Assembly: GCF_025685395.1 (NCBI RefSeq)
Contig: NZ_JAGSYA010000004.1
Location: forward strand, 124,001 to 188,000
DNA from: Terriglobus tenax
GTDB lineage: Bacteria; Acidobacteriota; Terriglobia; Terriglobales; Acidobacteriaceae
DNA: 64,000 nucleotides
Reading direction: 5' to 3'
The notes below the pieces were generated by a model. That model did not search any database and had not been told where the DNA came from. It saw only the letters and a list, made by a program, of their open reading frames with translations. Within the stretch, counting starts at the first letter, position 1. Each line of letters opens with the position of its first letter. Positions 5,901 through 42,564 of the stretch are shown here, piece by piece. The translations under genes and the position numbers were made by a program.

Positions 5901-6841
5901 CAGCAACTGGACTGAACTACGCGACTGCAACCTACACGTTGAATGCCAGCCAGTTGACGACCGGGCCGAACAGCATCACGGTGCAGTACAGCGGCGACAA
6001 TAACTATCTGGGATCAACATCCGGGGCAACGACGATCTACCTGCCTGCTGTAAGCACCACCACGCTGAGCCTTTCTCCGTCGTCGATTGCAATCGGCACA
6101 ACCAACGTTACCGCCACCTACGGTGTAACCAGCACGACGCCGGGAACCATAGCGGGCACGGTGAACTTCACCGTGGATGGGGTAAATGCTGGAAGCACGA
6201 CAACCCTGAGCGGAACGTATGCCTTACCAACCTCTTCGCTGAGCGCGGCCGCGCATACGGTCTATGCCGTCTTCACGTCCTCCAATAGTTCGTATCAGAA
6301 TTCGGTCTCAGCACCCGCAACGCTGACCGTAACTCCTGCACCGACCTTTACGTTAGGTGCCTCTCCTGCGTCGCTCACGGTAACGCGTGGAGTTCCTGGC
6401 ACAGCGAATATCTCAGTCACTGCGGTGAACGGTTTCAGCTCTTCCGTGGCCCTGGCTTGCAGCATTTCCGGATCTCCTACGGGAGCGGTCTGCGGCTTGT
6501 CTCCGTCCACCGTGACACCGGGAGTCGTCTCCGTGTTGAATATCACTACGGTTCGTGGCTCATCCCGCACGGGCAGCTTTGCACACTGGAAGCCCGCAGC
6601 TTTCGGAGGCGTAGCCTTTGCCGGGCTGTTATTCCTTCTGCGGCCTCGCCGCCGTCGGATGATGCCTCTGCTGGGCTTGTTGCTGCTACTTGGCGCGGCC
6701 GGAGCCATGAACGGCTGCGGTGGTGGCGGTACGGCTTCAACCGGAACTCCCGGGACGCCTGTGGGCACCTACACCGTGACCATAACGGGCACCAGCGGAG
6801 CCATTACGCAGACAGCAACGCTCTCGCTCACAGTGAACTAG
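2933..6841 (+). CDS. Exported sedolisin-family (S53) peptidase with Ig-like repeats
   Basis: 1302 residues. A Sec signal peptide (1-22) ends in SASAQ. The propeptide covers about 25-200 and the S53 domain about 240-715. Catalytic residues are visible: Glu318 and Asp322 (E-G-D-I-D before VQWSGAAAP) and Ser599 in GGTSVGSP, with oxyanion Asp in AAGDAGSG. Several Ig-like repeats follow (about 720-1130), then a final Ig-like domain containing a double hydrophobic segment split by RPRRRR and ending in NGCGGGG (about 1220-1268). The last residues, from GTYTVTITG, look like the closing strands of that Ig fold. It is a paralogue of the preceding gene in the same orientation. The stop codon overlaps the stop of convergent ppk1 by 4 bp (CTAG). 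Role inferred: an acid-active protease displayed at or released from the cell envelope. Confidence 0.9.
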   Translation: MLNFRCFAASFLALVSISASAQIPNRAKPLITQPVNDARRVALRGTIHPLVHSASDQGSVGDAVSLDRMLMTLRRSEDQETELKQLIDQQQDKTSANYHRWLTPDEFGARFGASDSDISTLTSWLTSHGFSNVSVSKGRTTVEFSGSAGTARQAFGLSMHRFSYLGKQRTANVTDPLIPAALAPLVAGFSSLNNFPRHTFSQNYGAYRRDAKTGKLQPTGNGPSSQYVFTSGGSRYLGLTPYDFATLYNLKPLWNTSVDGTGQTIAIVGQSDLDPQDFVNFRTLFGLPLGNTSGPTGTQYLNILHNGPNPGFLDDEIEGDIDVQWSGAAAPGATIDYVSSLGTETTAGIDLSALYIIDNNLAPIISESWGICEFFAGTDGNSFYSSLWQQAAAQGITIMVAAGDAGSGTCDQNKSYASYGLTVNAIASTPYSTAVGGTDFQTFFDDNGQFGSGNNTTTKQSISAYIPETTWNNTCTNEQLGLSSLFPGSSAETICNNSLAQTRYGLLTTTGGGGGRSNCISLTGNTLSTCTGGYAKPSWQTGSGVPSDNVRDLPDVSLFASNGFSGAFYIICQADAISSGAGCNIAAPYSDLLGVGGTSVGSPAMAGIMALVAQKNGGGRLGNANYNLYALFNRQVTAGTGCNSSLTPNAACNFNDVTTGTNSVPCVKGSANCSLTNSADTYGILSGFSSTSGFDLTTGLGTVNAANLANNWSTVTYAATATTLSLSPTTITHGTPVAATVTVTSGSGTPTGDVSINGNTTNGSVGQGTLTAGNYSHNFNNFPGGTYLVTAHYGGDQTRGASDSNAVSLTVTPENSKTALQPLFYNVTTGAVSTASSMSYGQYLALIKFTVAAASCSGITPCNGTPTGTIAVQNNGAAYGTGNYKLNSEGVAEIQTIDLTPGSYSFAGAYSGDASFNASTSNSGGFTVSKSPTNTSFTAGASTLSAGQTAVLNITVPSSSYGNILQTGTVSILNGSTVLGTVAVTGTYSTATGLNYATATYTLNASQLTTGPNSITVQYSGDNNYLGSTSGATTIYLPAVSTTTLSLSPSSIAIGTTNVTATYGVTSTTPGTIAGTVNFTVDGVNAGSTTTLSGTYALPTSSLSAAAHTVYAVFTSSNSSYQNSVSAPATLTVTPAPTFTLGASPASLTVTRGVPGTANISVTAVNGFSSSVALACSISGSPTGAVCGLSPSTVTPGVVSVLNITTVRGSSRTGSFAHWKPAAFGGVAFAGLLFLLRPRRRRMMPLLGLLLLLGAAGAMNGCGGGGTASTGTPGTPVGTYTVTITGTSGAITQTATLSLTVN

Positions 6842-8994
6842 CTCTTCTTCATACTGCGGACCGGCCTTGCAGGCTGGGGCGCAGGCGCCTCAGCCTGCGG
6901 TATCTGGGGGCTCGCACCTTCTGAGAGCTGCATCAGGTAATCCTGGGCGCTGAAGGGTTTGCTGACCTGCGACGGGCGCACGTAGTGGCCGTCAGGCGTC
7001 AGCAGGCGGGCCTTGGCATCGTCACGTAGATAGCTGCCGAGAATATCGTCGCGCAGACGGCGCAGCATCTCCGGAGCGTAGATCGGGAAAACGGCCTCGC
7101 AACGTTCGTACAGGTTGCGTGGCATCCAGTCGGCACTGCCACAGTAGACCTCGTCCTTCCCATCGTTCAGGAACCAGAAGATGCGGCTGTGCTCGAGAAA
7201 ACGGCCGACGATGGAGCGCACGCGGATCCGATCGCTGAGGCCGGGAACTCCGGGACGCAGGGCGCACATGCCGCGAATAATGAGATCAATCTCCACACCG
7301 GCCTGGCTGGCACGATACATGGCCTCGATCAGCCGGCGGTCCAGCAGGCCGTTCATCTTGGCGATCATGTGTGCGGGTCTGCCTGCCTTTGCGTGCTCAA
7401 TCTCACGCTCGATCAGCCGTTCCATGTCGTCCGCCAGCGTCAGCGGGGCAACCATCAACGGACGGTAGAGTTCGCCCTCGGCCTCGGCTGTCAGGTAGTT
7501 GAAGACGGCCTGAACACCGTGCGTGATCTCAGGATTTGCCGTAAGAAGGCTGATGTCAGAGTAGAAACGCGCTGTAACGGGGTTGTAATTGCCAGTGCCA
7601 AGGTGCGCGTAACGGCGCACGACACCATCTGGATCGCGGCGAACCATGAGCGCCAATTTGCAGTGTGTCTTCAGGCCGAAGATTCCGTGAAAGACCTGCA
7701 CGCCGGCGTCCTCCAGCGTGCGCGCCCAGCGGATATTCGAGGCCTCGTCAAAGCGGGCCATCAGCTCAACAACGACCGTAACATCCTTCAACTGCGCGGC
7801 GTCGACGAGGGCAGCAAACATGGGCGAGTCGGCGCTGGTGCGGTACAGCGTCTGCTTCATGCTGACCACGGCCGGGTCTTCGGCAGCGGCTTCAATGAAC
7901 TCTTCCACCAGGCTGTAGGTGTCAAAGGGGTGATGCAGCAGAATGTCGTTCGAGCGCAGCTCTTCCCACAGGTCGGCGGACTTGCGGTCAAGGCGGTACT
8001 CGCGGCCGTGGAAGGGCGGGAACTTCAGTCCATCGTTATCGACGCCGGAGTACAGGTTCATCAGGCGCGAGAGGTTCACGGGGCCGTCTGTCATGAAGAC
8101 CTGGCGCTCGTCCAGTTCAAAGTTGGCGCGCAGCCGTTCGACGATCTCCGGATCTGCATCTTCGCTGACCTCCAGGCGGACAGCATCCCCCTTCCGGCGA
8201 TTGTGGAGTTCGCTTCGCACGCTCTCCAGCAGGGAGCGGGTCTCTTCTTCCTGCAGGTAGAGGTTCGAGTTGCGCGTCACGCGGAAGGCGGTCTTGGCCA
8301 GTACCTCGTAGCCGCGGTACAGGCGCTCCGCCTGTGCTTCGATCAGGTCATGCAGGAAGATGAACTCGGTGCATCCGCTGCTGCAGGGCAGTTTGACCAG
8401 CCGGGGCAAGGAGCGGGGCACGGTGATGACGCCAAGGACAGGCTGCGCCGGAGCGGAGCCCTTCCGCTTGCGGCGGAGCAGCAGGGCAATGCATAGCGCC
8501 TTGTTCAGAACGCGAGGAAAGGGATGCGCGGGGTCGATGGTGACCGGTGTCAGCAGGGGGTCAACTTCGTCGTTGTAGTACTGCTCGGCGTGCTCGCGTG
8601 CGGTATCGTCCAGTTGTGACCATTCCAGAACGCGGATGCCCGCCTTTTCAAGAGCCGGCAGAAGCTGCTCGTTCCAGCACCGGTATTGGTCATGCACGAA
8701 GGCGTGCATCAGGCGGTTCAGCTCTTCCAGGCGGTTCTGTTCGCTCATGCCGTCGTCGGCTTCGGTGGCGGGCGTTACGTAACCGTCTTCCAGACGCTGC
8801 AGAATGCCAGCGACGCGAATCTCGACAAACTCGTCCAGATTGCTGGCGGTGATGGCCAGGAACTTGACGCGTTCGAGCAGGGGGTTGCGAGCATCCTGGG
8901 CCTCTTCCAGCACTCGCCAGTTGAAGCGCAGCCAGCTTTCGTCGCGATTGAAAAAACGGTGAGGAACCCGCGCGGGGGACGATCTACGAGGCAT
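6838..8994 (-). CDS. ppk1: Polyphosphate kinase 1
   Basis: 718 residues, the normal length for PPK1, which makes inorganic polyphosphate reversibly from ATP. The N-terminal domain shows FFNRDESWLRFNWRVL and the family segment KFLAITASNLDEF. The C-terminal catalytic half contains KTHCKL, whose His444 corresponds to the autophosphorylated histidine of the family, followed by HLGTGNYNP. A GSADWMPRNL segment typical of the C2 domain is present near the end. The gene stands alone: no ppx or phoU is adjacent. Its stop codon interlocks with that of the convergent sedolisin. The ATG at 8994 fits the family N terminus. Confidence 0.97.
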   Translation of the reverse strand: MPRRSSPARVPHRFFNRDESWLRFNWRVLEEAQDARNPLLERVKFLAITASNLDEFVEIRVAGILQRLEDGYVTPATEADDGMSEQNRLEELNRLMHAFVHDQYRCWNEQLLPALEKAGIRVLEWSQLDDTAREHAEQYYNDEVDPLLTPVTIDPAHPFPRVLNKALCIALLLRRKRKGSAPAQPVLGVITVPRSLPRLVKLPCSSGCTEFIFLHDLIEAQAERLYRGYEVLAKTAFRVTRNSNLYLQEEETRSLLESVRSELHNRRKGDAVRLEVSEDADPEIVERLRANFELDERQVFMTDGPVNLSRLMNLYSGVDNDGLKFPPFHGREYRLDRKSADLWEELRSNDILLHHPFDTYSLVEEFIEAAAEDPAVVSMKQTLYRTSADSPMFAALVDAAQLKDVTVVVELMARFDEASNIRWARTLEDAGVQVFHGIFGLKTHCKLALMVRRDPDGVVRRYAHLGTGNYNPVTARFYSDISLLTANPEITHGVQAVFNYLTAEAEGELYRPLMVAPLTLADDMERLIEREIEHAKAGRPAHMIAKMNGLLDRRLIEAMYRASQAGVEIDLIIRGMCALRPGVPGLSDRIRVRSIVGRFLEHSRIFWFLNDGKDEVYCGSADWMPRNLYERCEAVFPIYAPEMLRRLRDDILGSYLRDDAKARLLTPDGHYVRPSQVSKPFSAQDYLMQLSEGASPQIPQAEAPAPQPARPVRSMKKS

Positions 8995-34034: not shown

Positions 34035-36071
34035 ATGGCAATGGACGCAGGTAAATCGACGGCATCGTCTCAGGCAGGCTCACAGCCTCGCTTTGGACGC
34101 ATGGACCTCGAACTGGAGAAGGTCTCTTCCGGAATCAGGCGTGCGACCGAGTGGCTTTTCGGTCAGCAGCATGAGGACGGTTACTGGTGTGGCGAACTGG
34201 AAGCAGATGTCATGCTCGAAGCGGATTACGTCTTCGTTCATACTCTGCTGGGGACGGGCGAGCGCGGCCGGATGGAGCGCGCGGTCAACGAGATTCTCCG
34301 CCACCAGAATGAGGACGGCGGATGGAGCCTCTATCCCGGTGGCCCCTCGAATGTGAACTACGGCGTGAAAGCCTACCTGGCGCTGAAGCTGATGGGTTGG
34401 AAGGCTGATCATCCGTTGATGGTCAAGGCGCGTGAGAACGTGCTTTCGCTGGGCGGCGTGGTGGAGTGCAATACCTTCACCAAGCTCTATCTCTGCGCTC
34501 TGGGTGCCTACGATTACGATGCCGTACCGGCTATTCCGCCGGAGATCATCCTCTTTCCCAACTGGTTCTACTTCAACATCTACGAGATTTCTTCGTGGTC
34601 GCGCGGCATTCTGGTGCCACTGTCGATCATCTACGCGAAGAAGCCTTTCAAGAAGCTGGCTCCGGAAGAGGAGATCGACGAGCTCTTCGTGGGTGGCCGC
34701 GCCAACGCGAACCTTCATCTCCGCTGGGACAAGAAGCGCCCCGTCAGCTGGCGCAACTTCTTTCTTCTGTGTGACCGCGTGGCCCATTGGGCGGAGCGCG
34801 TGCATATCCGCCCGCTTCGCTCCATGGCTTTGAAGAAGGCCGAGAAGTGGATGCTGGAGCGCTTTGAGAAGTCCGACGGCCTGGGCGCAATTTATCCGGC
34901 CATGCTGAACGCCATCGTCGCTCTGCGCTGCCTCGGCTTCTCCATGGACGACCCCGTCCTGATTCGCGCCATGGACGAGTTTGAAAAGCTGGGCATCGAT
35001 TGCCCGGAAGGCACACCGGACTACCCGACGCCGACCTTCCGTATGCAGCCCTGCCTGCCCCCGGTATGGGATACGGCACAGGCCATCTATGCGCTGGGCG
35101 AAGCCGGAGTCTCCAAGGAAGATCCGCGCCTGCTGAAGGCCGCAGACTGGATTCTGAGCAAGGAAGTCCGCTTCAAGGGCGACTGGGCCGAAAAGGTCAA
35201 AAATGTCGAACCAGGTGGATGGTACTTCGAGTTCAACAATGAATTTTACCCGGATGTCGATGATACCGGACAGGTTCTGCTTGCACTGAAGAGTGTGGAG
35301 AATCCCCGCGAGCGCTACCAGGACGAGGTTTGCCAGCGTGCCCTGAACTGGATCTGGGCCATGCAGTGCAAGAACGGCGGATGGGCGGCCTTCGACAAAG
35401 ACAACACGAAGACCATCTTCGAGCAGATTCCGTTTGCCGATCACAATGCCATGCTGGACCCGCCGACGGTCGACATTACCGGCCGCATGCTGGAGATGCT
35501 CGCGCTTTATGGCTATGACCGCTCCGACAAGCGTGTCGAGAAGGCGGTGCAGTTCATCCTCTCCGAACAGGAGAGCGATGGCAGCTGGTTTGGCCGCTGG
35601 GGCGTGAACTATCTCTACGGCACCTTCCTGGTTCTGCGTGGTCTGCAGTCCATGGGCATGTGGAGCCACGAGCCATGCGTTCTACAGGCAACCGAATGGG
35701 TGCGCATGGTGCAGAACTCCGATGGCGGATGGGGCGAAAGCTGTGGCACATACGACGATCCGCTGAAGAAGGGCATTGGCCCCAGCACACCGTCCCAGAC
35801 AGCCTGGGCATTGCTGGCGCTACTGGCCGGTGGAGATGTCCGTTCGGATTCCGTAGCGAAGGGCGTTCGCTGGCTGATTGACCATCAGCATGAAGACGGC
35901 AGTTGGGATGAGCTGGTGCCGGGACGTAATGGGGAAAGCTATTACACCGGAACGGGCTTCCCGCGCGTCTTTTACCTTGGCTACCACCTGTACAAGCAGT
36001 ATTTCCCGCTGCTGGCATTGACGACTTATATCAAGGCGCGCGAGACAGAAGTCTCCGGCGCATTGCAATAA
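34035..36071 (+). CDS. shc: Squalene-hopene cyclase
   Basis: 678 residues, typical for the family. The enzyme cyclises squalene to hopene and diplopterol. The protonating DXDD motif is DVDD at 407-410. Several QW-type repeats are visible (QHEDGYWCGELEAD, NEDGGWSLYPGG, CKNGGWAAFDKDN, ESDGSWFGRWGVN, NSDGGWGESC, HEDGSWDE). The protein is a monotopic membrane enzyme of double alpha-barrel fold. It sits between ispH and hpnH. No squalene-synthesis genes (hpnC, hpnD, hpnE) are in the window, so squalene must come from another locus. Confidence 0.96.
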   Translation: MAMDAGKSTASSQAGSQPRFGRMDLELEKVSSGIRRATEWLFGQQHEDGYWCGELEADVMLEADYVFVHTLLGTGERGRMERAVNEILRHQNEDGGWSLYPGGPSNVNYGVKAYLALKLMGWKADHPLMVKARENVLSLGGVVECNTFTKLYLCALGAYDYDAVPAIPPEIILFPNWFYFNIYEISSWSRGILVPLSIIYAKKPFKKLAPEEEIDELFVGGRANANLHLRWDKKRPVSWRNFFLLCDRVAHWAERVHIRPLRSMALKKAEKWMLERFEKSDGLGAIYPAMLNAIVALRCLGFSMDDPVLIRAMDEFEKLGIDCPEGTPDYPTPTFRMQPCLPPVWDTAQAIYALGEAGVSKEDPRLLKAADWILSKEVRFKGDWAEKVKNVEPGGWYFEFNNEFYPDVDDTGQVLLALKSVENPRERYQDEVCQRALNWIWAMQCKNGGWAAFDKDNTKTIFEQIPFADHNAMLDPPTVDITGRMLEMLALYGYDRSDKRVEKAVQFILSEQESDGSWFGRWGVNYLYGTFLVLRGLQSMGMWSHEPCVLQATEWVRMVQNSDGGWGESCGTYDDPLKKGIGPSTPSQTAWALLALLAGGDVRSDSVAKGVRWLIDHQHEDGSWDELVPGRNGESYYTGTGFPRVFYLGYHLYKQYFPLLALTTYIKARETEVSGALQ

Positions 36072-36101: not shown

Positions 36102-37229
36102 ATGGCAGTGCCAATCTCACAGATGTTCACTGTTGCGAGCTATGTTCTGAAGCAGAAGATCAAGGGCCGCAAGCGGTATCCGCTGGTGCTGATGCTGGAG
36201 CCGTTGTTCCGCTGCAACCTGGCGTGTGCCGGCTGCGGCAAGATCCAGTACCCGGCTCATATTCTGAAGACCGATCTGACGCCCGAGCAGTGCTTTGCCG
36301 CGGTGGAAGAGTGCGGCACGCCGATGGTCTCCATCCCCGGCGGAGAGCCCCTGCTGCATCCGCAGATGCCGGAGATCGTCGCCGGCCTGGTGGCTCGCAA
36401 GAAGTACGTCTACATGTGCACCAACGCTCTCCTGCTGAAGGAGAAGCTGCACCTGTTTACGCCGAGCAAGTACCTCTCCTTCTCCGTCCACGTCGACGGC
36501 CAGAAGGAACACCATGACTTCTCCGTATGCCGCGAGGGTGGCCACGACCAGGCGATGGAGGGTGTCCGCGAGGCCGTGAAGCGCGGCTTCCGCGTCACGA
36601 CCAACACCACGCTCTTCGATGGTGCCGATCCGAACTCTGTGCGTGCGCACTTTGATGAGCTGATGGCTGCCGGTGTTGAGAGCATGATGGTGTCTCCGGG
36701 TTACACCTATGACAAGGCGCCGGACCAGAACCACTTCCTTGGCAAGGCCAAGTCGCGCCGCCTGTTCCGCGCCATCCTGTCGAACCGCAAGAAGAACTGG
36801 CAGTTCAACACGCATCCGCTCTTCGCCGAGTTCCTGATGGGCAAGCGCAACTTCGAGTGCACGCCCTGGGGCATGCCGACCTACAACATCTTCGGCTGGC
36901 AGAAACCCTGCTACCTGCTGCAGGACGGCTACGCCGACACCTTCCAGGAGCTGATGGAAGCCACCGAGTGGGCCAACTACGGCGCCAAGAGCGGCAACCC
37001 GCGCTGCGCTAACTGCATGGTCCACTCCGGCCACGAGGCCTCCGCCGTTGACTACGGCTTCGGCTCCCTGAAGGGTTTCATCGATACGGCCAAGGCATTC
37101 CTCTCCGGTTCCTACCAGGACGCTGGCGCACAGAAGATTCTCAACGAGTGGCAGCCGGAGCACCGTGGCCAGCTGGTACAGATTGCCGCCCCCGCGGCAC
37201 AGCAGACCGAGCTGGTCTCAGGAGACTAA
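36102..37229 (+). CDS. hpnH: Adenosyl-hopane transferase HpnH (radical SAM)
   Basis: 375 residues behind an AAGGAG site. The radical-SAM cluster motif is Cys38-x3-Cys42-x2-Cys45 in FRCNLACAGCGKIQYP. Other family segments are VSIPGGEPLLHPQMPEIV and SFSVHVDGQKEHHDFSVCREGG, and cysteines in KRNFECTPWGMPTYNIFGWQKPCYLL and NPRCANCMVHSGHEASAV. It adds a 5'-deoxyadenosyl group to diploptene, the first step in making C35 hopanoids. It is 30 bp after shc and 3 bp before a small unknown gene. Confidence 0.96.
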   Translation: MAVPISQMFTVASYVLKQKIKGRKRYPLVLMLEPLFRCNLACAGCGKIQYPAHILKTDLTPEQCFAAVEECGTPMVSIPGGEPLLHPQMPEIVAGLVARKKYVYMCTNALLLKEKLHLFTPSKYLSFSVHVDGQKEHHDFSVCREGGHDQAMEGVREAVKRGFRVTTNTTLFDGADPNSVRAHFDELMAAGVESMMVSPGYTYDKAPDQNHFLGKAKSRRLFRAILSNRKKNWQFNTHPLFAEFLMGKRNFECTPWGMPTYNIFGWQKPCYLLQDGYADTFQELMEATEWANYGAKSGNPRCANCMVHSGHEASAVDYGFGSLKGFIDTAKAFLSGSYQDAGAQKILNEWQPEHRGQLVQIAAPAAQQTELVSGD

Positions 37230-37232
37230 TCC

Positions 37233-37682
37233 ATGTCGACACTGCAGCAGGAATCCGCAAAGATCGAGCAGTTGAAGCACCAGTCGTTTGACGAACTGGA
37301 GCACGTGGCTGGTCGCGAACGCGAAAACCTTGAGGGCTGGATCCCGGAGCTCGCCACCGCAGACGAAGTTCGCGAAGCTCTGGAAAAAGCTTTTGACTAC
37401 CGTGGTGATGTAACCGTCACCCTGAAGGACGGAACTGTGGTGGAAGGCTATGTCTTCGACCGCCGTTCCGGCACCTCGCTCACCGATTCCTTTATCCGCA
37501 TTCTTCCTTCCAAGGGCGACCGCGGCAAGGTGAATGTCGCTTATGGCGACATCGCCGCTCTGGCCTTTACGGGCCGCGACACCGCAGCTGGAAAGACCTT
37601 TGAAGCCTGGGTAAAGAAGTACTGGGAGAAGAAGGCAGCGGGCGAAAAGAATATTGGCATCGAAGCCGAAAAGCTGGACTAA
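37233..37682 (+). CDS. Unknown small protein in the hopanoid operon
   Basis: 149 residues, 3 bp after hpnH, with GGAG 8 nt upstream. The N-terminal 60 residues are helical and acidic. A compact beta region follows (GDVTVTLKDGTVVEGYVFDRR ... FIRILPSKGDRGKVNVAYGDIAALAF) that looks like a small Sm/SH3-type barrel, then a basic helix (WVKKYWEKKAAGEKN). There is no signal peptide or membrane segment and I do not recognise a named hopanoid gene. Cotranscription with hpnH suggests a hopanoid-related accessory role. A strong terminator follows directly. Confidence 0.75.
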   Translation: MSTLQQESAKIEQLKHQSFDELEHVAGRERENLEGWIPELATADEVREALEKAFDYRGDVTVTLKDGTVVEGYVFDRRSGTSLTDSFIRILPSKGDRGKVNVAYGDIAALAFTGRDTAAGKTFEAWVKKYWEKKAAGEKNIGIEAEKLD

Positions 37683-37693
37683 ACTTTCTACCG

Positions 37694-37727
37694 GATGCCG
37701 GCACGATTCGCCGGCATCGTCATTTTT
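37694..37727 (+). terminator. Intrinsic terminator inside the hopanoid cluster
   Basis: GATGCCGGC and GCCGGCATC form a perfect 9-bp stem with a 7-nt loop, followed by GTCATTTTT. It separates the ispH-shc-hpnH-unknown transcript from hpnA-hpnG-dehydrogenase, only 11 nt before the hpnA ATG, so read-through or a separate downstream promoter is required. Confidence 0.8.
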
Positions 37728-37738
37728 AGTGTGAGGGC

Positions 37739-38746
37739 ATGAACGTCTTTCTCACCGGAGCGACCGGGTTCGTCGGGAACCATGTCGCGCGCTGTTATGC
37801 GGGCCAGGGCGCAAATCTGCGCCTGCTGACGCGCGGCACCAACAATGTACAACTGGAAGGCATTCCGGCGGAGATCATCACCGGCGATCTGCTGCGCCCG
37901 GAAGACCTGCGCACCGCGATCCGCGGTTGCGATGCTGTCGTCCACGTTGCCGCTGACTACCGCCTCTGGGTCCGCAATCCGGACGAAATGTATGCGTCCA
38001 ATGTGACCGGCACTCGTGAGCTTCTGCGTATCGCACGTGAAGAGAAGGTGCCGCACTTCATCTATACCTCCAGCGTCGCGACCATGGGCTTTAAGACCGA
38101 TGGCACCATTGTGGATGAGACCACGCCTGTGTCGATTGCCGACATGATGGGCCATTACAAGCGCTCCAAGTTTCTTGCCGAGCAGGAAGCCATCAGCGCA
38201 GCCCAGCTCGGCCAGCGTGTGATGATTCTTAATCCGACCACGCCCATCGGCTCACGTGATGTGAAGCCGACACCCACCGGCCGCATTGTGGTGGACTTCC
38301 TGAATCGCAAGTTTCCGGCGTATGTCGATACCGGTCTGAACCTGGTGGACGTCGTCGAGGTCGCACGCATGCACCTTGCAGCACTTGATGCGGGAAGGCC
38401 GGGCGAACGGTATATCCTCGGAGGTGAAAACCTGACACTGAAGCAGATTCTCGACCGCATGTCTGCAATTACCGGGCTGCCGTCCCCCACCATGAAAGTT
38501 CCTCATTCGGTAGCCATGGTCTTTGCGTTTTTCGACGAAACGTTTACAGGCAAGCTGCGCGGCAAAGAACCGCGTGCAACCGTGGAGGCTGTGCGCATGG
38601 GCAGGAAGAAGATGTTTGCATCTTCAGCAAAGGCGGAGCGGGAACTGGGCTTCAAGGTGCTCCCGGTTTACAAGGCGCTTCGTTCAGCCATCGACTGGTT
38701 CGTTGACAACAGCTATGCACCGTCGTACGAAGGGAAGCGCGCCTGA
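37739..38746 (+). CDS. hpnA: Hopanoid-associated NAD-dependent sugar epimerase HpnA
   Basis: 335 residues, extended short-chain dehydrogenase fold. The nucleotide-binding motif is TGATGFVGNHVAR and the catalytic YxxxK is GHYKRSK. The motif NPTTPIGSRDVKPTPTGRIVVDFL is characteristic of the HpnA subgroup, as is YVDTGLNLVDVVEVARMH. The exact reaction of HpnA in hopanoid side-chain formation is not settled. GAGGG precedes the ATG. The TGA stop shares its A with the ATG of hpnG (TGATG), so translation is coupled. Confidence 0.93.
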   Translation: MNVFLTGATGFVGNHVARCYAGQGANLRLLTRGTNNVQLEGIPAEIITGDLLRPEDLRTAIRGCDAVVHVAADYRLWVRNPDEMYASNVTGTRELLRIAREEKVPHFIYTSSVATMGFKTDGTIVDETTPVSIADMMGHYKRSKFLAEQEAISAAQLGQRVMILNPTTPIGSRDVKPTPTGRIVVDFLNRKFPAYVDTGLNLVDVVEVARMHLAALDAGRPGERYILGGENLTLKQILDRMSAITGLPSPTMKVPHSVAMVFAFFDETFTGKLRGKEPRATVEAVRMGRKKMFASSAKAERELGFKVLPVYKALRSAIDWFVDNSYAPSYEGKRA

Positions 38747-39423
38747 TGGAGGAATGCTTCGGAATCATTGCAGCTCTTCCTGGAGAGCTGAAGCCTCTTG
38801 TCAGTGGTTGGCAGCAGTTGGAAACAGTCAACGGGGTGAATGCCTGGAAGCATCCATCGCGCCCGGTCTACGCCGTATGCGCAGGCATGGGTGCTGAGCG
38901 TGCCAGGCAGGCCTTCGCACAGCTGACCAACCTCTGCGAACCCACAACAGTGCTCTCTATCGGCTGGGCAGGGTCGATCGATCCGCGTCTGCCTGTAGGC
39001 TCGGTGCACTATCCCTCGCAGATCGTCGACAGTGAAGCGGAAGAACATTACCCGCTGCATCTGGACAGCAGCATGCTGCTGATCTCCGCCGATAAGGTGG
39101 CTGATCGTGGCGAGAAGTATCGCCTCGCCCTGGCATATTCGAACGCTGCGCTTGTCGACATGGAAGCCGCAACGGTTGCCGGTCTCTCCTTTGCGCGAGG
39201 CTGCAAGTTCCGTTGCATCAAGGCGGTCTCTGACGGCGCCAATGAAGAGCTGCCGGACATGAACCCCTACATCACCAAGGACGGCAAGTTCGCAACAGCT
39301 CCGTTCGTTGCCAGCGTGATGGTACGTCCCTGGTACTGGGCCGCGCTCGCACGCTTCGGCAAGAATGCAAAGATCGCTGCGGAGAACCTCGCTGTCGCTG
39401 TAAAGAAGGACCTGAATCTATGA
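38746..39423 (+). CDS. hpnG: Hopanoid nucleosidase/phosphorylase HpnG
   Basis: 225 residues of the MTA/SAH nucleosidase-like fold: GIIAALPGELKPLVSG at the start, VYAVCAGMGAERARQAF, LSIGWAGSIDPRLPVGSV, and the purine/ribose-binding region ALVDMEAATVAGLS and CIKAVSDGANEELPDM. HpnG releases adenine from adenosylhopane to give ribosylhopane. It overlaps hpnA by 1 bp and the dehydrogenase by 4 bp (ATGA), an unusually tight coupling that suggests consecutive steps. Confidence 0.92.
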   Translation: MEECFGIIAALPGELKPLVSGWQQLETVNGVNAWKHPSRPVYAVCAGMGAERARQAFAQLTNLCEPTTVLSIGWAGSIDPRLPVGSVHYPSQIVDSEAEEHYPLHLDSSMLLISADKVADRGEKYRLALAYSNAALVDMEAATVAGLSFARGCKFRCIKAVSDGANEELPDMNPYITKDGKFATAPFVASVMVRPWYWAALARFGKNAKIAAENLAVAVKKDLNL

Positions 39424-40493
39424 GTCAATTGGAAGTCCCCGCGACGATGCGGGCAGCCGTGTATCGCGGCGTGGAAGATGTGCGTATTGAAACCGTACCT
39501 GTACCGGAGATCGGCGCGGGAGAGGTCCTGGTCAAGATTCACACCTGCGGCATCTGCGGTACAGACCTGAAGAAGATCCACACCGGTTCGCACTCGGCTC
39601 CGCGCGTCTTCGGTCACGAAATGAGTGGTACGGTCGTCAAGGTCGGAGAGGGTATTGAAGACTTCTCCGTAGGCGATCGCGTGATGGCCTTCCATCACAT
39701 TCCCTGCGGCGAGTGCTACTACTGCCGCAAGCACACCTTCGCCCAGTGCGAGACATATAAGAAGGTTGGCACCACAGCTGGCTTTGCGCCTTCAGGTGGA
39801 GGCTTCGCCGAGTACATCCGCGTGATGGACTGGATCGTGAAGCGCGGTCTGGTGAAGATCCCCGACGGCGTTCCATTTGAACAGGCTGCATTCATTGAGC
39901 CAGTGAACACCTGCTTCAAGGCCATCAAGATGCTTGATCTGAAGCCTGATGAGACAGTGCTTGTCATAGGCCAGGGCTCCATTGGCGTTCTTCTGGCGGC
40001 TCTCGCCGCGCGCACCGGGGCCACCGTTCTCACAAGCGATATGTTTGCGGAGCGCCATGCCGTTGCAGCAAAGTTTGGCCTGAAGCATCCCATCGATGCA
40101 AAAGGAGATGTCGTAGCCGCCGCGCGTTCCGCCACCGAAGGCCGGGGTGCGGATGTAACCCTGGTTGCCGTTGGCAGCGACAAGCTGATTCCGCTGGCTA
40201 TGGATGCAACACGCCCCGGTGGCCGCGTCATGCTCTTCGCGTCCACGCAGCATGGCGAGGCCGTCTTTGATCCCGCCGCGGTCTGCATGGATGAGAAAAC
40301 ACTGATGGGCAGCTACTCCGCCTCGGTCGCCATTCAGGATGAAGGCGCTCAGCTTGTTCTCAATGGCTACAACGATGGCTTTGACCTGACACAGCTTATC
40401 TCGCATCGCTTCACGCTGGAAGAAGCCGTGCAGGGAATTCACCTGGCATCGAATCCGCAGCCGGACTCGATGAAAATCGTGATCCAGCCGTAG
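39420..40493 (+). CDS. Zinc-dependent alcohol dehydrogenase (MDR), candidate ribosylhopane reductase
   Basis: 357 residues, medium-chain dehydrogenase/reductase. Catalytic zinc ligands fit Cys43 (HTCGICGTD) and His66-Glu67 (GHEMSG). The structural zinc site is complete: Cys96, Cys99, Cys102 and Cys110 in CGECYYCRKHTFAQC. The dinucleotide loop is GQGSIGVLLAALAARTGA, and the acidic residue in LTSDMF after the second strand favours NAD over NADP. It overlaps hpnG by 4 bp and is followed by a strong terminator, so it belongs to the hpnA-hpnG unit. Reduction of the ribosylhopane aldehyde to bacteriohopanetetrol is the obvious missing step; this assignment is inference from context. A general sugar-alcohol dehydrogenase is the alternative. 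Confidence 0.88.
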   Translation: MSQLEVPATMRAAVYRGVEDVRIETVPVPEIGAGEVLVKIHTCGICGTDLKKIHTGSHSAPRVFGHEMSGTVVKVGEGIEDFSVGDRVMAFHHIPCGECYYCRKHTFAQCETYKKVGTTAGFAPSGGGFAEYIRVMDWIVKRGLVKIPDGVPFEQAAFIEPVNTCFKAIKMLDLKPDETVLVIGQGSIGVLLAALAARTGATVLTSDMFAERHAVAAKFGLKHPIDAKGDVVAAARSATEGRGADVTLVAVGSDKLIPLAMDATRPGGRVMLFASTQHGEAVFDPAAVCMDEKTLMGSYSASVAIQDEGAQLVLNGYNDGFDLTQLISHRFTLEEAVQGIHLASNPQPDSMKIVIQP

Positions 40494-40510
40494 TCCGACA
40501 ACAGATGTAA

Positions 40511-40545
40511 GAATGGGCACGGCTTACACCGTGCCCATTCTTTTT
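40511..40545 (+). terminator. Strong intrinsic terminator ending the hopanoid cluster
   Basis: GAATGGGCACGG and CCGTGCCCATTC form a perfect 12-bp stem with a CTTACA loop, followed by TTTTTATTT. It lies between convergent genes and ends the hpnA-hpnG-dehydrogenase transcript. Confidence 0.9.
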
Positions 40546-41476
40546 ATTTATGCAGCGCAGGCTTCTGCGAGCGGAGCCATGTGAGCAGCCCCGCAGGATC
40601 GTCGGTAATGATGCCGTCGACTTTCGCCTCAGTCAGCTTCTTCCAGCCTTCCGCTGTATTCGAAGTGTAGGGAACCACCTGCAGTCCTGCCTTGTGCGCC
40701 GCGGCAACTTCTTCCAAAGTGACAAGGCTTTCATCCGGGCTCAGGATCGTCGCACCCGAAACCTCTGCGATATGCGCAAAGCTCTTGTCCTTGTCCGTAA
40801 TCCCCATAAAGATGTCGTATTTCGCCTGCCCAAACAGGGCCGACAGACGGATCTTCGGATCAATCTTCTTCATGGCGAGCAGGGTGCGGAAGTCAAAGCT
40901 CTGCAGGATAACGCGCGACTCAAGATGATGTTTCCGCACGGCGTCATCAATCATCTGCACAAAGATTTCGGGCGAAGGTGTCAGCTCCGGGTGAGCGGCC
41001 GAGATCTTCGTCTCCACGTTGAACTCGAACTTTCCCTGCGGTGCCAGCGCCAGCACTTCGTCAAAGGTGGGAATAGGCGTTCCCGGCACAGCCTTCTGCT
41101 GCGGAAAAGCGGCAAGCGTGGTCGCGCCACAGTCATACGCCTTCACCTCGGCCAGCGTCAGCGAATGAATCAGGGTTCCCGCCGGCCGCTCGGGTCCTTT
41201 ACAGTGACGTTCATTCGCGAGCACGGCCTTCATAAAAGCATCCGTCCCTTCGGGCTGTACCAGGTAAGGCGAGTGCGAGACGACCAGGACGTTATCCTTC
41301 GTCACGGCAAGATCAAGTTCCAGAACATCCGCACCTGTATCGATGGCGTACTGGAAGGCCGGGATCGTATTCTCCGGCCGCGCGGAGCGGCCTCCGCGAT
41401 GGGCGTGTACAAGAACCGTCTGGGCAGTGGCAGGCAAAGCTGCCGCAAGAAGCAGGAGAGCAAATCGCATACGCAT
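40544..41476 (-). CDS. Exported glycerophosphodiester phosphodiesterase
   Basis: 310 residues from the ATG at 41476 (or 41470), which gives a signal peptide RMRFALLLLAAALPATAQ; an upstream start would bury it. The GDPD TIM barrel shows VHAHRGGRSARPENTIPAF, the metal-binding LELDLAVTKDNVLVVSHSP, and later VETKI, ILQSF and VDGIITDDP. It hydrolyses glycerophosphodiesters to glycerol-3-phosphate in the periplasm. It converges on the hopanoid cluster. Confidence 0.92.
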   Translation of the reverse strand: MRMRFALLLLAAALPATAQTVLVHAHRGGRSARPENTIPAFQYAIDTGADVLELDLAVTKDNVLVVSHSPYLVQPEGTDAFMKAVLANERHCKGPERPAGTLIHSLTLAEVKAYDCGATTLAAFPQQKAVPGTPIPTFDEVLALAPQGKFEFNVETKISAAHPELTPSPEIFVQMIDDAVRKHHLESRVILQSFDFRTLLAMKKIDPKIRLSALFGQAKYDIFMGITDKDKSFAHIAEVSGATILSPDESLVTLEEVAAAHKAGLQVVPYTSNTAEGWKKLTEAKVDGIITDDPAGLLTWLRSQKPALHK

Positions 41477-41583: not shown

Positions 41584-42564
41584 ATGCGCACCATAGCCAT
41601 AGCCGTCCTGGCGTTCACATTGTCCTGCGAGGCTCAACAGCCGTCGGACGCGCTGCAGGTTGCTCCGGAGGTGATGGCAGCTCAGTCCATCAGCAAAACC
41701 CCGCCACTCTATCCTCCCATTGCACGCGCTGCGCATGTGCAGGGCGACGTTGTCGTCAGGGCTCTTATCGGGACCGATGGCAGCGTCGTCGATGCAGAGG
41801 CTATCAGCGGCCCTGCGATGCTGCGCCGTTCCGCTGTCGATGCCGTGTTGCAATGGACGTATCAACCCTTCCTGAAAAATGGAAAGCCGATGGTGGTGCA
41901 GACCACCGTCACCGTACATTACGAGATCGCCAAAGAGGCTCCGCCTTCCGTGACGGGTAGCCCGGTACGCATCGCTGCCGGCATGATGGCGGGTCACATC
42001 GTTCAGAAAGCCAATCCTGTCTATCCGCCCGAGGCCCGTGCAGCGCATGTGGAAGGCACCGTCGTGATGCACGCCATCATTGGCAAAGACGGCACAATTC
42101 GAAACCTGACGGTAGAGAGCGGGCCGGAGATGCTGCGCGACTCAGCCGTCGAAGCCGTGCGTCAGTGGACGTACCAGCCCTACCTGCTGAACGGGGAACC
42201 CGTCGAAGTGAACACGGTCATCGCAGTTAATTACAAGATGGAAGCCACCTCACCGCCCCCGCCTCCAGCACGCGTGCGCGTCTCCGCCGGTGTCATGGCA
42301 GCACTGCTTGAGAAGAAGGTGATGCCGGTGTGGCCACCAGATGCGACCCGGCAGAACGTGAACGGAACCGTCGTCCTGCATGTTGTGATCGGAAAGGATG
42401 GCTCCGTGATCGAGGCCGACGTTATCTCAGGCCCGGAGGTCCTGCGTCCGTCCTACCTGGAGGCCGTACAGCAATGGCAGTATCGCCCCTACCTTCTCAA
42501 TGGAGAGCCTGTAGAGGTCGATACGACCATTGCGATGAATGTCCTGATGGCAGCGGAGCGCTAA
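41584..42564 (+). CDS. Exported protein with three tandem TonB C-terminal domains
   Basis: 326 residues behind an AAGGAG site. A short N-terminal signal peptide (AIAVLAFTLSCEAQ) is followed by three TonB-C-like units (about 40-115, 130-215, 230-322). Each has the same layout: PPLYPPIARAAHVQGDVVVRALIG..DG, then SGPAMLRRSAVDAVLQWTYQP, then a (K/N)NG(K/E)PV strand. A normal TonB anchor and Pro-rich span are absent, so it probably does not couple to ExbB/ExbD itself. It may be a periplasmic binder or decoy. No ExbBD or receptor gene is adjacent. The stop overlaps the convergent M20 gene by 4 bp. Confidence 0.85.
   Translation: MRTIAIAVLAFTLSCEAQQPSDALQVAPEVMAAQSISKTPPLYPPIARAAHVQGDVVVRALIGTDGSVVDAEAISGPAMLRRSAVDAVLQWTYQPFLKNGKPMVVQTTVTVHYEIAKEAPPSVTGSPVRIAAGMMAGHIVQKANPVYPPEARAAHVEGTVVMHAIIGKDGTIRNLTVESGPEMLRDSAVEAVRQWTYQPYLLNGEPVEVNTVIAVNYKMEATSPPPPPARVRVSAGVMAALLEKKVMPVWPPDATRQNVNGTVVLHVVIGKDGSVIEADVISGPEVLRPSYLEAVQQWQYRPYLLNGEPVEVDTTIAMNVLMAAER

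Follow-up and report, generated by a model that had tools for sequence, protein, structure and literature searches.

A zinc-dependent dehydrogenase gene closes a hopanoid operon in Terriglobus tenax

We analysed a 64,000-nt stretch of the Terriglobus tenax genome (assembly GCF_025685395.1, contig NZ_JAGSYA010000004.1, positions 124,001 to 188,000; hereafter the window), the forward strand of which carries, in this order, ispH, shc, hpnH, a 149-aa open reading frame (ORF), hpnA, hpnG, a gene for a zinc-dependent medium-chain dehydrogenase (MDR) that we call MDR1, and a terminator (Table 1). The enzyme that converts ribosylhopane, the product of HpnG, to bacteriohopanetetrol (BHT) had 'not yet been established' in 2025 (PMC12583986), and the alphaproteobacterial clusters offer no obvious nearby candidate beyond HpnA, HpnB, HpnL and HpnM (PMC12583986; here and below, statements on this paper and on PMC5462960 refer to the portions of their text available to us). 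In the open-licence literature, covered by titles and the starts of abstracts, we found no assignment of this step; a subscription paper could hold one. A sequence-only reading of the window had proposed MDR1 as the missing ribosylhopane reductase, pointing to an ATGA overlap with hpnG, complete catalytic and structural zinc ligands, an NAD-type pocket, a strong terminator right after the gene, and the vacancy in the pathway. All of these observations were borne out, and it is the assignment built on them that stood only in part.

MDR1 is a genuine full-length zinc-dependent MDR within a conserved hopanoid operon. Its ATG exactly overlaps the TGA stop codon of hpnG, with AAGAAGGA about 10 bases 5' of the start codon, and the stop codon of hpnA likewise overlaps the start of hpnG (TGATG). 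Both domains of the protein score above the Pfam cut-offs (ADH_N, 97.4 bits; ADH_zinc_N, 69.8 bits), and the predicted fold (AlphaFold, pLDDT 92) combines a GroES-like with a Rossmann domain and reaches a Foldseek TM of 0.86 to its best match, 4ej6. In an alignment of 117 distinct MDR1 rows, C46, H66, E67 and E160 of the catalytic zinc site and C96, C99, C102 and C110 of the structural lobe are invariant; domains, zinc ligands and fold alike place MDR1 in the zinc-dependent MDR superfamily. Glu160 as third catalytic ligand is what we take to be the polyol-dehydrogenase type. Position 207 is Asp in 116 of the 117 rows and Glu in one. Downstream of the gene, folding of positions 40494-40560 gave -26.9 kcal/mol (z -6.3), a value that none of 200 shuffles equalled. 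The abundance of terminator-like sites was rejected as a notable feature, the whole region holding 4 against 6.5 expected.

The best 80 of 563 relatives include the MDR1 of Terriglobus albidus (94% identity), and two plasmid records match MDR1 at 32-35% identity. With the polyol/threonine dehydrogenase branch (sorbitol dehydrogenase, 1e3j, 6ie0, Tdh, GatD, IolM) MDR1 shares the fold, both zinc sites and the Glu third ligand, on the type label assumed above, but all its listed NCBIfam scores lie far below the curated cut-offs. We therefore rejected MDR1 as a Tdh (the best, at 160 of 380 bits), an IolM (159 of 450) or a GatD (143 of 550).

Table 1. MDR1, its sequence features and the neighbouring hopanoid genes, in positions of the window
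Feature	Position	Strand	Basis
MDR1, zinc-dependent medium-chain dehydrogenase, 357 aa	39420..40493	+	Pfam, AlphaFold, Foldseek
hpnG stop/MDR1 start overlap, ATGA	39420..39423	+	direct reading
Cys46 codon, catalytic zinc ligand	39555..39557	+	117/117 rows
His66-Glu67 codons (GHE motif), catalytic zinc	39615..39620	+	117/117 rows
Cys96, Cys99, Cys102, Cys110, structural zinc lobe	39705..39749	+	117/117 rows
Glu160 codon (EP motif), third catalytic zinc ligand	39897..39899	+	117/117 rows
GQGSIG, dinucleotide-binding glycine motif	39969..39986	+	G184, G186, G189 in 117/117 rows
Asp207 codon, end of second Rossmann strand, NAD-type	40038..40040	+	Asp in 116/117 MDR1 rows
Intrinsic terminator 3' of MDR1	40509..40542	+	14-pair stem, T run
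hpnG, adenosylhopane nucleosidase/phosphorylase, divergent	38746..39423	+	TIGR03468, PF01048, conserved place
hpnA, SDR-type 'sugar epimerase'	37739..38746	+	TIGR03466, 463 bits
hpnH, adenosylhopane synthase	36102..37229	+	TIGR03470, 528 bits
shc, squalene-hopene cyclase	34035..36071	+	TIGR01507, 718 bits

MDR1 stands behind hpnG across Acidobacteriota

We searched 247 Acidobacteriota genomes with profiles of MDR1, HpnH and a second dehydrogenase, MDR2, described below. MDR1 orthologs form a clean group present in 38 of these genomes at a threshold of at least 357 bits, the next match being at 208 bits; of 41 matches, 3 at 205-208 bits were dropped. In the family to which T. tenax belongs, 25 genomes have MDR1, and in all 25 hpnG lies upstream of it, at most about 0.8 kb away on the same contig and strand. 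We also scanned the contigs of the best 80 of the 563 related loci, which bear acidobacterial labels except L121 and L143, with genes called as simple open frames with profile matches rather than taken from curated annotation. There, hpnG lies upstream of MDR1 on the same strand and at most 1.5 kb away in 75 of the 80 loci, at more than 200 bases in two of them; among the five exceptions, L122 and L124 have no HpnG match on the locus and L101, L150 and L160 fall outside the rule. The sequence-only reading had made its case depend on such a linkage, which thus holds within Acidobacteriota. The 4-base overlap, on the other hand, had to be given up as a conserved sign, since it occurs in only 11 of the 80 loci (7 ATGA, 2 GTGA, 2 TTGA): adjacency of hpnG and MDR1 is the general feature. 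The ATGA form is found in Terriglobus roseus DSM 18391 (L112), presumably the same strain as KBS63. Separately, we observed that MDR1 of Bryocella elongata (L124:8908-10086) is solitary, with no hpnA, hpnG or MDR2 match on its 19-kb locus.

A second dehydrogenase is paired with MDR1

The squalene half of the pathway carries a second dehydrogenase. This protein, MDR2, is 33% identical to MDR1 and is encoded in the same genome (G000) at the head of hpnC-hpnD-hpnE, outside the window (G000:C4:47609-48664, locus L078). The block as a whole (G000:C4:47609-51847, L078:7610-11848) has short gene overlaps; MDR2 comes first, then two SQS_PSY proteins (hpnC, hpnD), then hpnE, an amine-oxidase-type protein.

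MDR2 is present in the same 38 of the 247 genomes as MDR1 at a threshold of at least 344 bits, which dropped 17 of 55 genomes and is a thin cut, G132 at 338 bits being enough to raise 38 to 39. It adjoins MDR1 in 41 of the 80 best loci, the two genes overlap by 4 bases in 25 of the 70 same-strand loci with both (some of which repeat one genome), and in a separate family, f39, MDR2 accompanies MDR1 in 10 of 10 genomes. One genome each of f2 and f50 unites hpnA-hpnG-MDR1-MDR2 with two squalene/phytoene-synthase genes (Pfam-tested in f50). In f28, hpnA stands directly 5' of MDR1-MDR2 in 6 of 9 loci, one of them with a confirmed HpnA (474 bits), and the clusters of L038, L040, L041, L043, L045 and L046 yielded no clear hpnG. 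Linkage to hpnG, as would be expected of a dedicated ribosylhopane reductase, is seen within Acidobacteriota only, and not in f28 or f39. HpnG matches in f28 genomes are weak, and in L042, the one tested, an MTA/SAH nucleosidase profile scores higher.

In a tree of 74 rows, the MDR1 clade groups with the MDR2 clade ahead of any of four other MDRs (support 97/89), a sister relationship that is relative to this small outside sample, comprising only E. coli Tdh, two proteins of the T. tenax genome and one more. The tree takes in 10 of the 80 best loci, none of them from L009-L037, is midpoint-rooted with long branches flagged, and leaves out ten further matches, hand-picked because they were duplicates, weak members or frames that ran too long.

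The paired enzymes differ where the second Rossmann strand ends. In MDRs, Asp at this point goes with NAD(H), and Val, Gly or Ala followed by Lys, Arg or Asn with NADP(H). At the MDR2 position matching Asp207, 62 of 65 rows have Val, Gly or Ala, 2 have Asp and 1 has a gap; Lys, Arg or Asn follows in 64. Three looser pairs (L166, L171, L172) are split in the same way, one partner having D and the other G-R-R. These few residues, read in the light of what is generally known of MDRs, suggest that MDR1 is NAD(H)-type and MDR2 NADP(H)-type. A profile search of solved structures put 4ej6 and the ketose reductase 1e3j at the top for both proteins, and the ten best fold matches of MDR1, at 24-32% identity, include 4ej6, butanediol and threonine dehydrogenases, an alcohol dehydrogenase and a ketose reductase. 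This lean towards secondary alcohols counts weakly against aldehyde reduction, because the top match, 4ej6, has no known function and a broader alcohol dehydrogenase is also listed.

Parts of this arrangement are already in print. The order hpnA-hpnG-ug1 was published for Acidobacteria in 2017, with ug1 of 'unknown function' and HpnA offered as a possible ribosylhopane-to-BHT enzyme (PMC5462960). That paper notes the conservation of these genes and describes a second one, ug2, of about 350 aa and often annotated as a Zn-binding alcohol dehydrogenase, which it places in all genomes of subdivisions 1 and 3 at one point and gives as missing from cluster A of subdivision 3 at another (PMC5462960). 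MDR1, following hpnA-hpnG, corresponds to ug1 of cluster C (Sinninghe Damste et al. 2017), and MDR2, preceding hpnC-hpnD-hpnE, corresponds to ug2 of cluster A (PMC5462960), both matches being by position only. In contrast to our description, the available text does not call ug1 a dehydrogenase, nor ug1 and ug2 related or split in cofactor (PMC5462960).

MDR1 and the distribution of C35 hopanoid genes

HpnH occurs in 62 of the 247 genomes and MDR1 in 35 of these 62, an association (Fisher p 4e-22) that is inflated by phylogeny, as co-occurrence counts take in related genomes rather than independent events. Seen from the other side, 35 of the 38 genomes with MDR1 have HpnH. A dedicated reductase would be expected wherever HpnH is found, but 27 of the 62 HpnH-positive Acidobacteriota lack MDR1, whose place could be taken there by a different enzyme. 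Among the 27, G096, G123 and G165 are Chloracidobacterium-like, an identity that we deduced, and each of the three holds an MDR2-like gene (44-45% identical); Chloracidobacterium is reported to make BHT derivatives (PMC5462960). One HpnH genome of the same family as T. tenax, G007, also has no MDR1 match. It holds HpnH and shc, with MDR1, MDR2, HpnG and HpnD unmatched; since its contig ends shortly after the 149-aa ORF, we did not count it as a natural co-loss, and an assembly gap is possible.

In search of a replacement oxidoreductase behind hpnG, we took loci from 20 of the 27 HpnH genomes without MDR1, finding an HpnG match on 14; profile tests of neighbours covered these loci apart from L061, L066, L071, L073 and L077. 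Besides the oxidoreductase of f47 discussed below, the next same-strand gene encodes a methyltransferase in L062, FMN_dh-family proteins resembling IPP isomerase in L064 and L070, and squalene/phytoene synthases in L068 and L072; it is dxs in L069, and L067 has a TonB_C protein there.

Neighbouring genes in the window

The gene directly upstream of MDR1 scores 86.7 bits with TIGR03468, under the cut-off of 187.1, and 62 bits with PF01048; we name it hpnG because of its place in the operon and its homology, despite the sub-cut-off family score. It diverges faster than MDR1, with 34-52% against 61-84% identity to members of the family, the near relative G241 excepted. The 149-aa ORF (37233-37682), directly 3' of hpnH, has no Pfam or NCBIfam match, recurs on many of the 80 best loci and corresponds by position to ug3 (PMC5462960). 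Between this ORF and hpnA, a 9-pair G+C-rich hairpin with a T-rich tail (37694-37718) may split or attenuate the hpnH and hpnA-hpnG-MDR1 units. Further downstream, the ORF at 41584-42564 appears by eye to encode a secreted protein with three tandem TonB-C-like repeats.

The absence of hpnO from the cluster had been taken as a sign of a tetrol end product. The absence itself stands, as no class III aminotransferase (PF00202) lies within the window, but it says little about the end product, because published clusters omit hpnO and the T. tenax genome has class III aminotransferases elsewhere: five PF00202 matches, among which HpnO is not assignable. Three published hopanoid clusters do not include hpnO, which was detected in many, not all, subdivision-1 genomes, with a warning of look-alike aminotransferases (PMC5462960). 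The HpnO route to aminobacteriohopanetriol has the ribosylhopane intermediate in common with the step considered here (PMC12583986) and differs from it in being a transamination, not a reduction.

A two-dehydrogenase module for the hopanoid side chain

We tentatively regard MDR1 and MDR2 as a two-dehydrogenase module of the polyol/ketose type that would act on the C35 side chain, with MDR1 as its NAD half, and we hold this reading at somewhat less than even confidence. It is favoured because a lone aldehyde reduction needs one enzyme and leaves the pairing of MDR1 with MDR2 (38/38 genomes; 10/10 in f39) unexplained. Given the linkage to hpnA-hpnG, the ribose-derived hopanoid chain is the likely substrate in T. 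tenax; the module would have been recruited into C35 side-chain operons in hopanoid-making Acidobacteriota of several families and would most likely act on the chain after HpnH and HpnG. We infer the cofactor use, substrate and direction of the two enzymes, and their sequential action, as follows: one would take a hydride from a carbon of the chain and the other would give a hydride to a chain carbon, by which the reduction of ribosylhopane to BHT could be completed and/or a secondary hydroxyl could be oxidised and then re-reduced. Oxidation and reduction on the same or a neighbouring carbon would explain the pairing, the cofactor split and the adjacency. Pairs of NAD- and NADPH-dependent dehydrogenases are known to invert a hydroxyl, for example from myo- to scyllo-inositol; the inositol-inverting pairs resemble MDR1 and MDR2 in bringing one NAD-type and one NADP-type dehydrogenase to bear on a polyol, but belong to another protein family.

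Several observations weigh against a module tied to C35 hopanoids. Family f39 (14 genomes, of which G066 and G221 also belong to the phylum sample) has MDR1 in 10 genomes, MDR2 in 11 (the same ten plus G247) and HpnH in G066 only. A dedicated reductase would be missing from genomes that make no C35 hopanoids, but nine f39 genomes, of which seven have a completeness of 92% or more, hold MDR1 and MDR2 without HpnH. G221, whose completeness is marked as 100%, is without shc, HpnH and HpnG. Three of the nine, G256, G257 and G258, have no HpnD either, nor does the 68%-complete G250. None of the ten f39 pair loci has an HpnG match, the tested neighbours being a WYL regulator (L197), a proline dehydrogenase (L047) and QueF (L199). 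Within the MDR1 clade linked to hopanoids, the f39 sequences nest at intermediate support (91/77). The looser MDR2-MDR1 pairs of L166, L171 and L172, on loci of 16-17 kb, have no HpnA, HpnG, HpnH, Shc or IspH match. The f39 pairs without HpnH and HpnG therefore indicate that the module has a role outside C35 hopanoids, or that it changed substrate and was repurposed in f39. In two MDR1-free loci of f47 (L063, L065), moreover, an F420-type luciferase-like oxidoreductase lies about 73 bases 3' of hpnG (L063:12475-13377, TIGR03560 262 bits against a cut-off of 231, Bac_luciferase 164 bits; counterpart in L065 at about 6746-7648). The two proteins are 98% identical over 300 aa and come from near-identical genomes, and they could be a replacement for MDR1 at the same step or chance neighbours.

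As a side observation, G221 encodes two HpnC/HpnD-like proteins (G221:C5:100290-103590) in spite of having neither shc nor HpnH; these may make either squalene for a non-hopanoid purpose or another isoprenoid.

The proposal of the sequence-only reading, in which MDR1 alone reduces the open-chain C35 aldehyde of ribosylhopane to the primary alcohol of BHT with NADH, we consider unlikely. MDR1 does follow hpnG, the maker of its would-be substrate, in 75 of the 80 best loci, and in T. tenax the terminator closes the transcription unit right after it; T. roseus DSM 18391 shares the ATGA overlap, the examined subdivision-1 strains make bacteriohopanepolyols, partly pentafunctionalised in T. roseus KBS63 (PMC5462960), and the step still lacks an enzyme (PMC12583986). 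But this account leaves MDR2, next to which MDR1 is neither the sole nor plainly the better candidate, without a place, and the 27 of 62 HpnH genomes without MDR1 (three of them Chloracidobacterium-like and one, G007, perhaps explained by an assembly gap), the nine f39 genomes with MDR1 and no HpnH, the NAD-type pocket and, weakly, the preference of the butanediol, threonine and ketose/sorbitol relatives for secondary alcohols, where ribosylhopane would be reduced at an aldehyde, all speak against it. What stands of the proposal is the linkage to hpnG and hpnA.

It is likewise improbable that MDR1 and MDR2 have no part in side-chain synthesis and act in some other metabolism, such as that of a free sugar or of a polyol, with the hpn operons as no more than a shared location. 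The f39 genomes that have the pair and lack HpnH would suit such a role, as would the looser pairs, on whose loci the hpn genes searched for gave no match, and the MDR1-like genes of L167, L168 and L169 (35-36% identical), which adjoin a DeoC/LacD-type aldolase (Pfam DeoC in L167, by look in the others). A passenger would, however, be expected to lose its linkage to hpnA and/or hpnG, which is kept, close or overlapping, in f1, f2, f28 and f50, and HpnH is present in 35 of the 38 MDR1 genomes of the phylum sample.

The roles could also be exchanged, with MDR2 as an NADPH-dependent ribosylhopane reductase and MDR1 performing another oxidation of the pathway, which we find rather improbable. The NADP-type residues of MDR2 suit a biosynthetic reduction, its gene is found in the genomes that have MDR1 and, in T. 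tenax, stands at the head of hpnC-hpnD-hpnE, and the three MDR1-free Chloracidobacterium-like genomes hold an MDR2-like gene. Yet the T. tenax genome, with its split clusters, has MDR2 beside squalene genes rather than hpnG, MDR2 is found in genomes without HpnH as well, and in the one Chloracidobacterium-like genome examined the MDR2-like gene (L173) has no HpnA, HpnG, HpnH, Shc or IspH match on its 16-kb locus. Least probable of all is a specific form of the two-dehydrogenase module, in which MDR1 and MDR2 would constitute a hydride relay that, by NAD+-linked oxidation and NADPH-linked reduction, inverts or sets a hydroxyl fixing the stereochemistry of the BHT side chain, having arisen from a general polyol-epimerising module still used by hopanoid-free relatives on another substrate.

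MDR1 is thus a good, partly supported lead in the search for the missing hopanoid reductase, but not the answer yet; a choice by operon linkage alone would have singled out one member of a pair also present outside hopanoid synthesis. BHT is the parent compound of one main class of geological biomarkers. For part of the Acidobacteriota, these findings narrow the search for its completing enzyme to HpnA and the two paired dehydrogenases.

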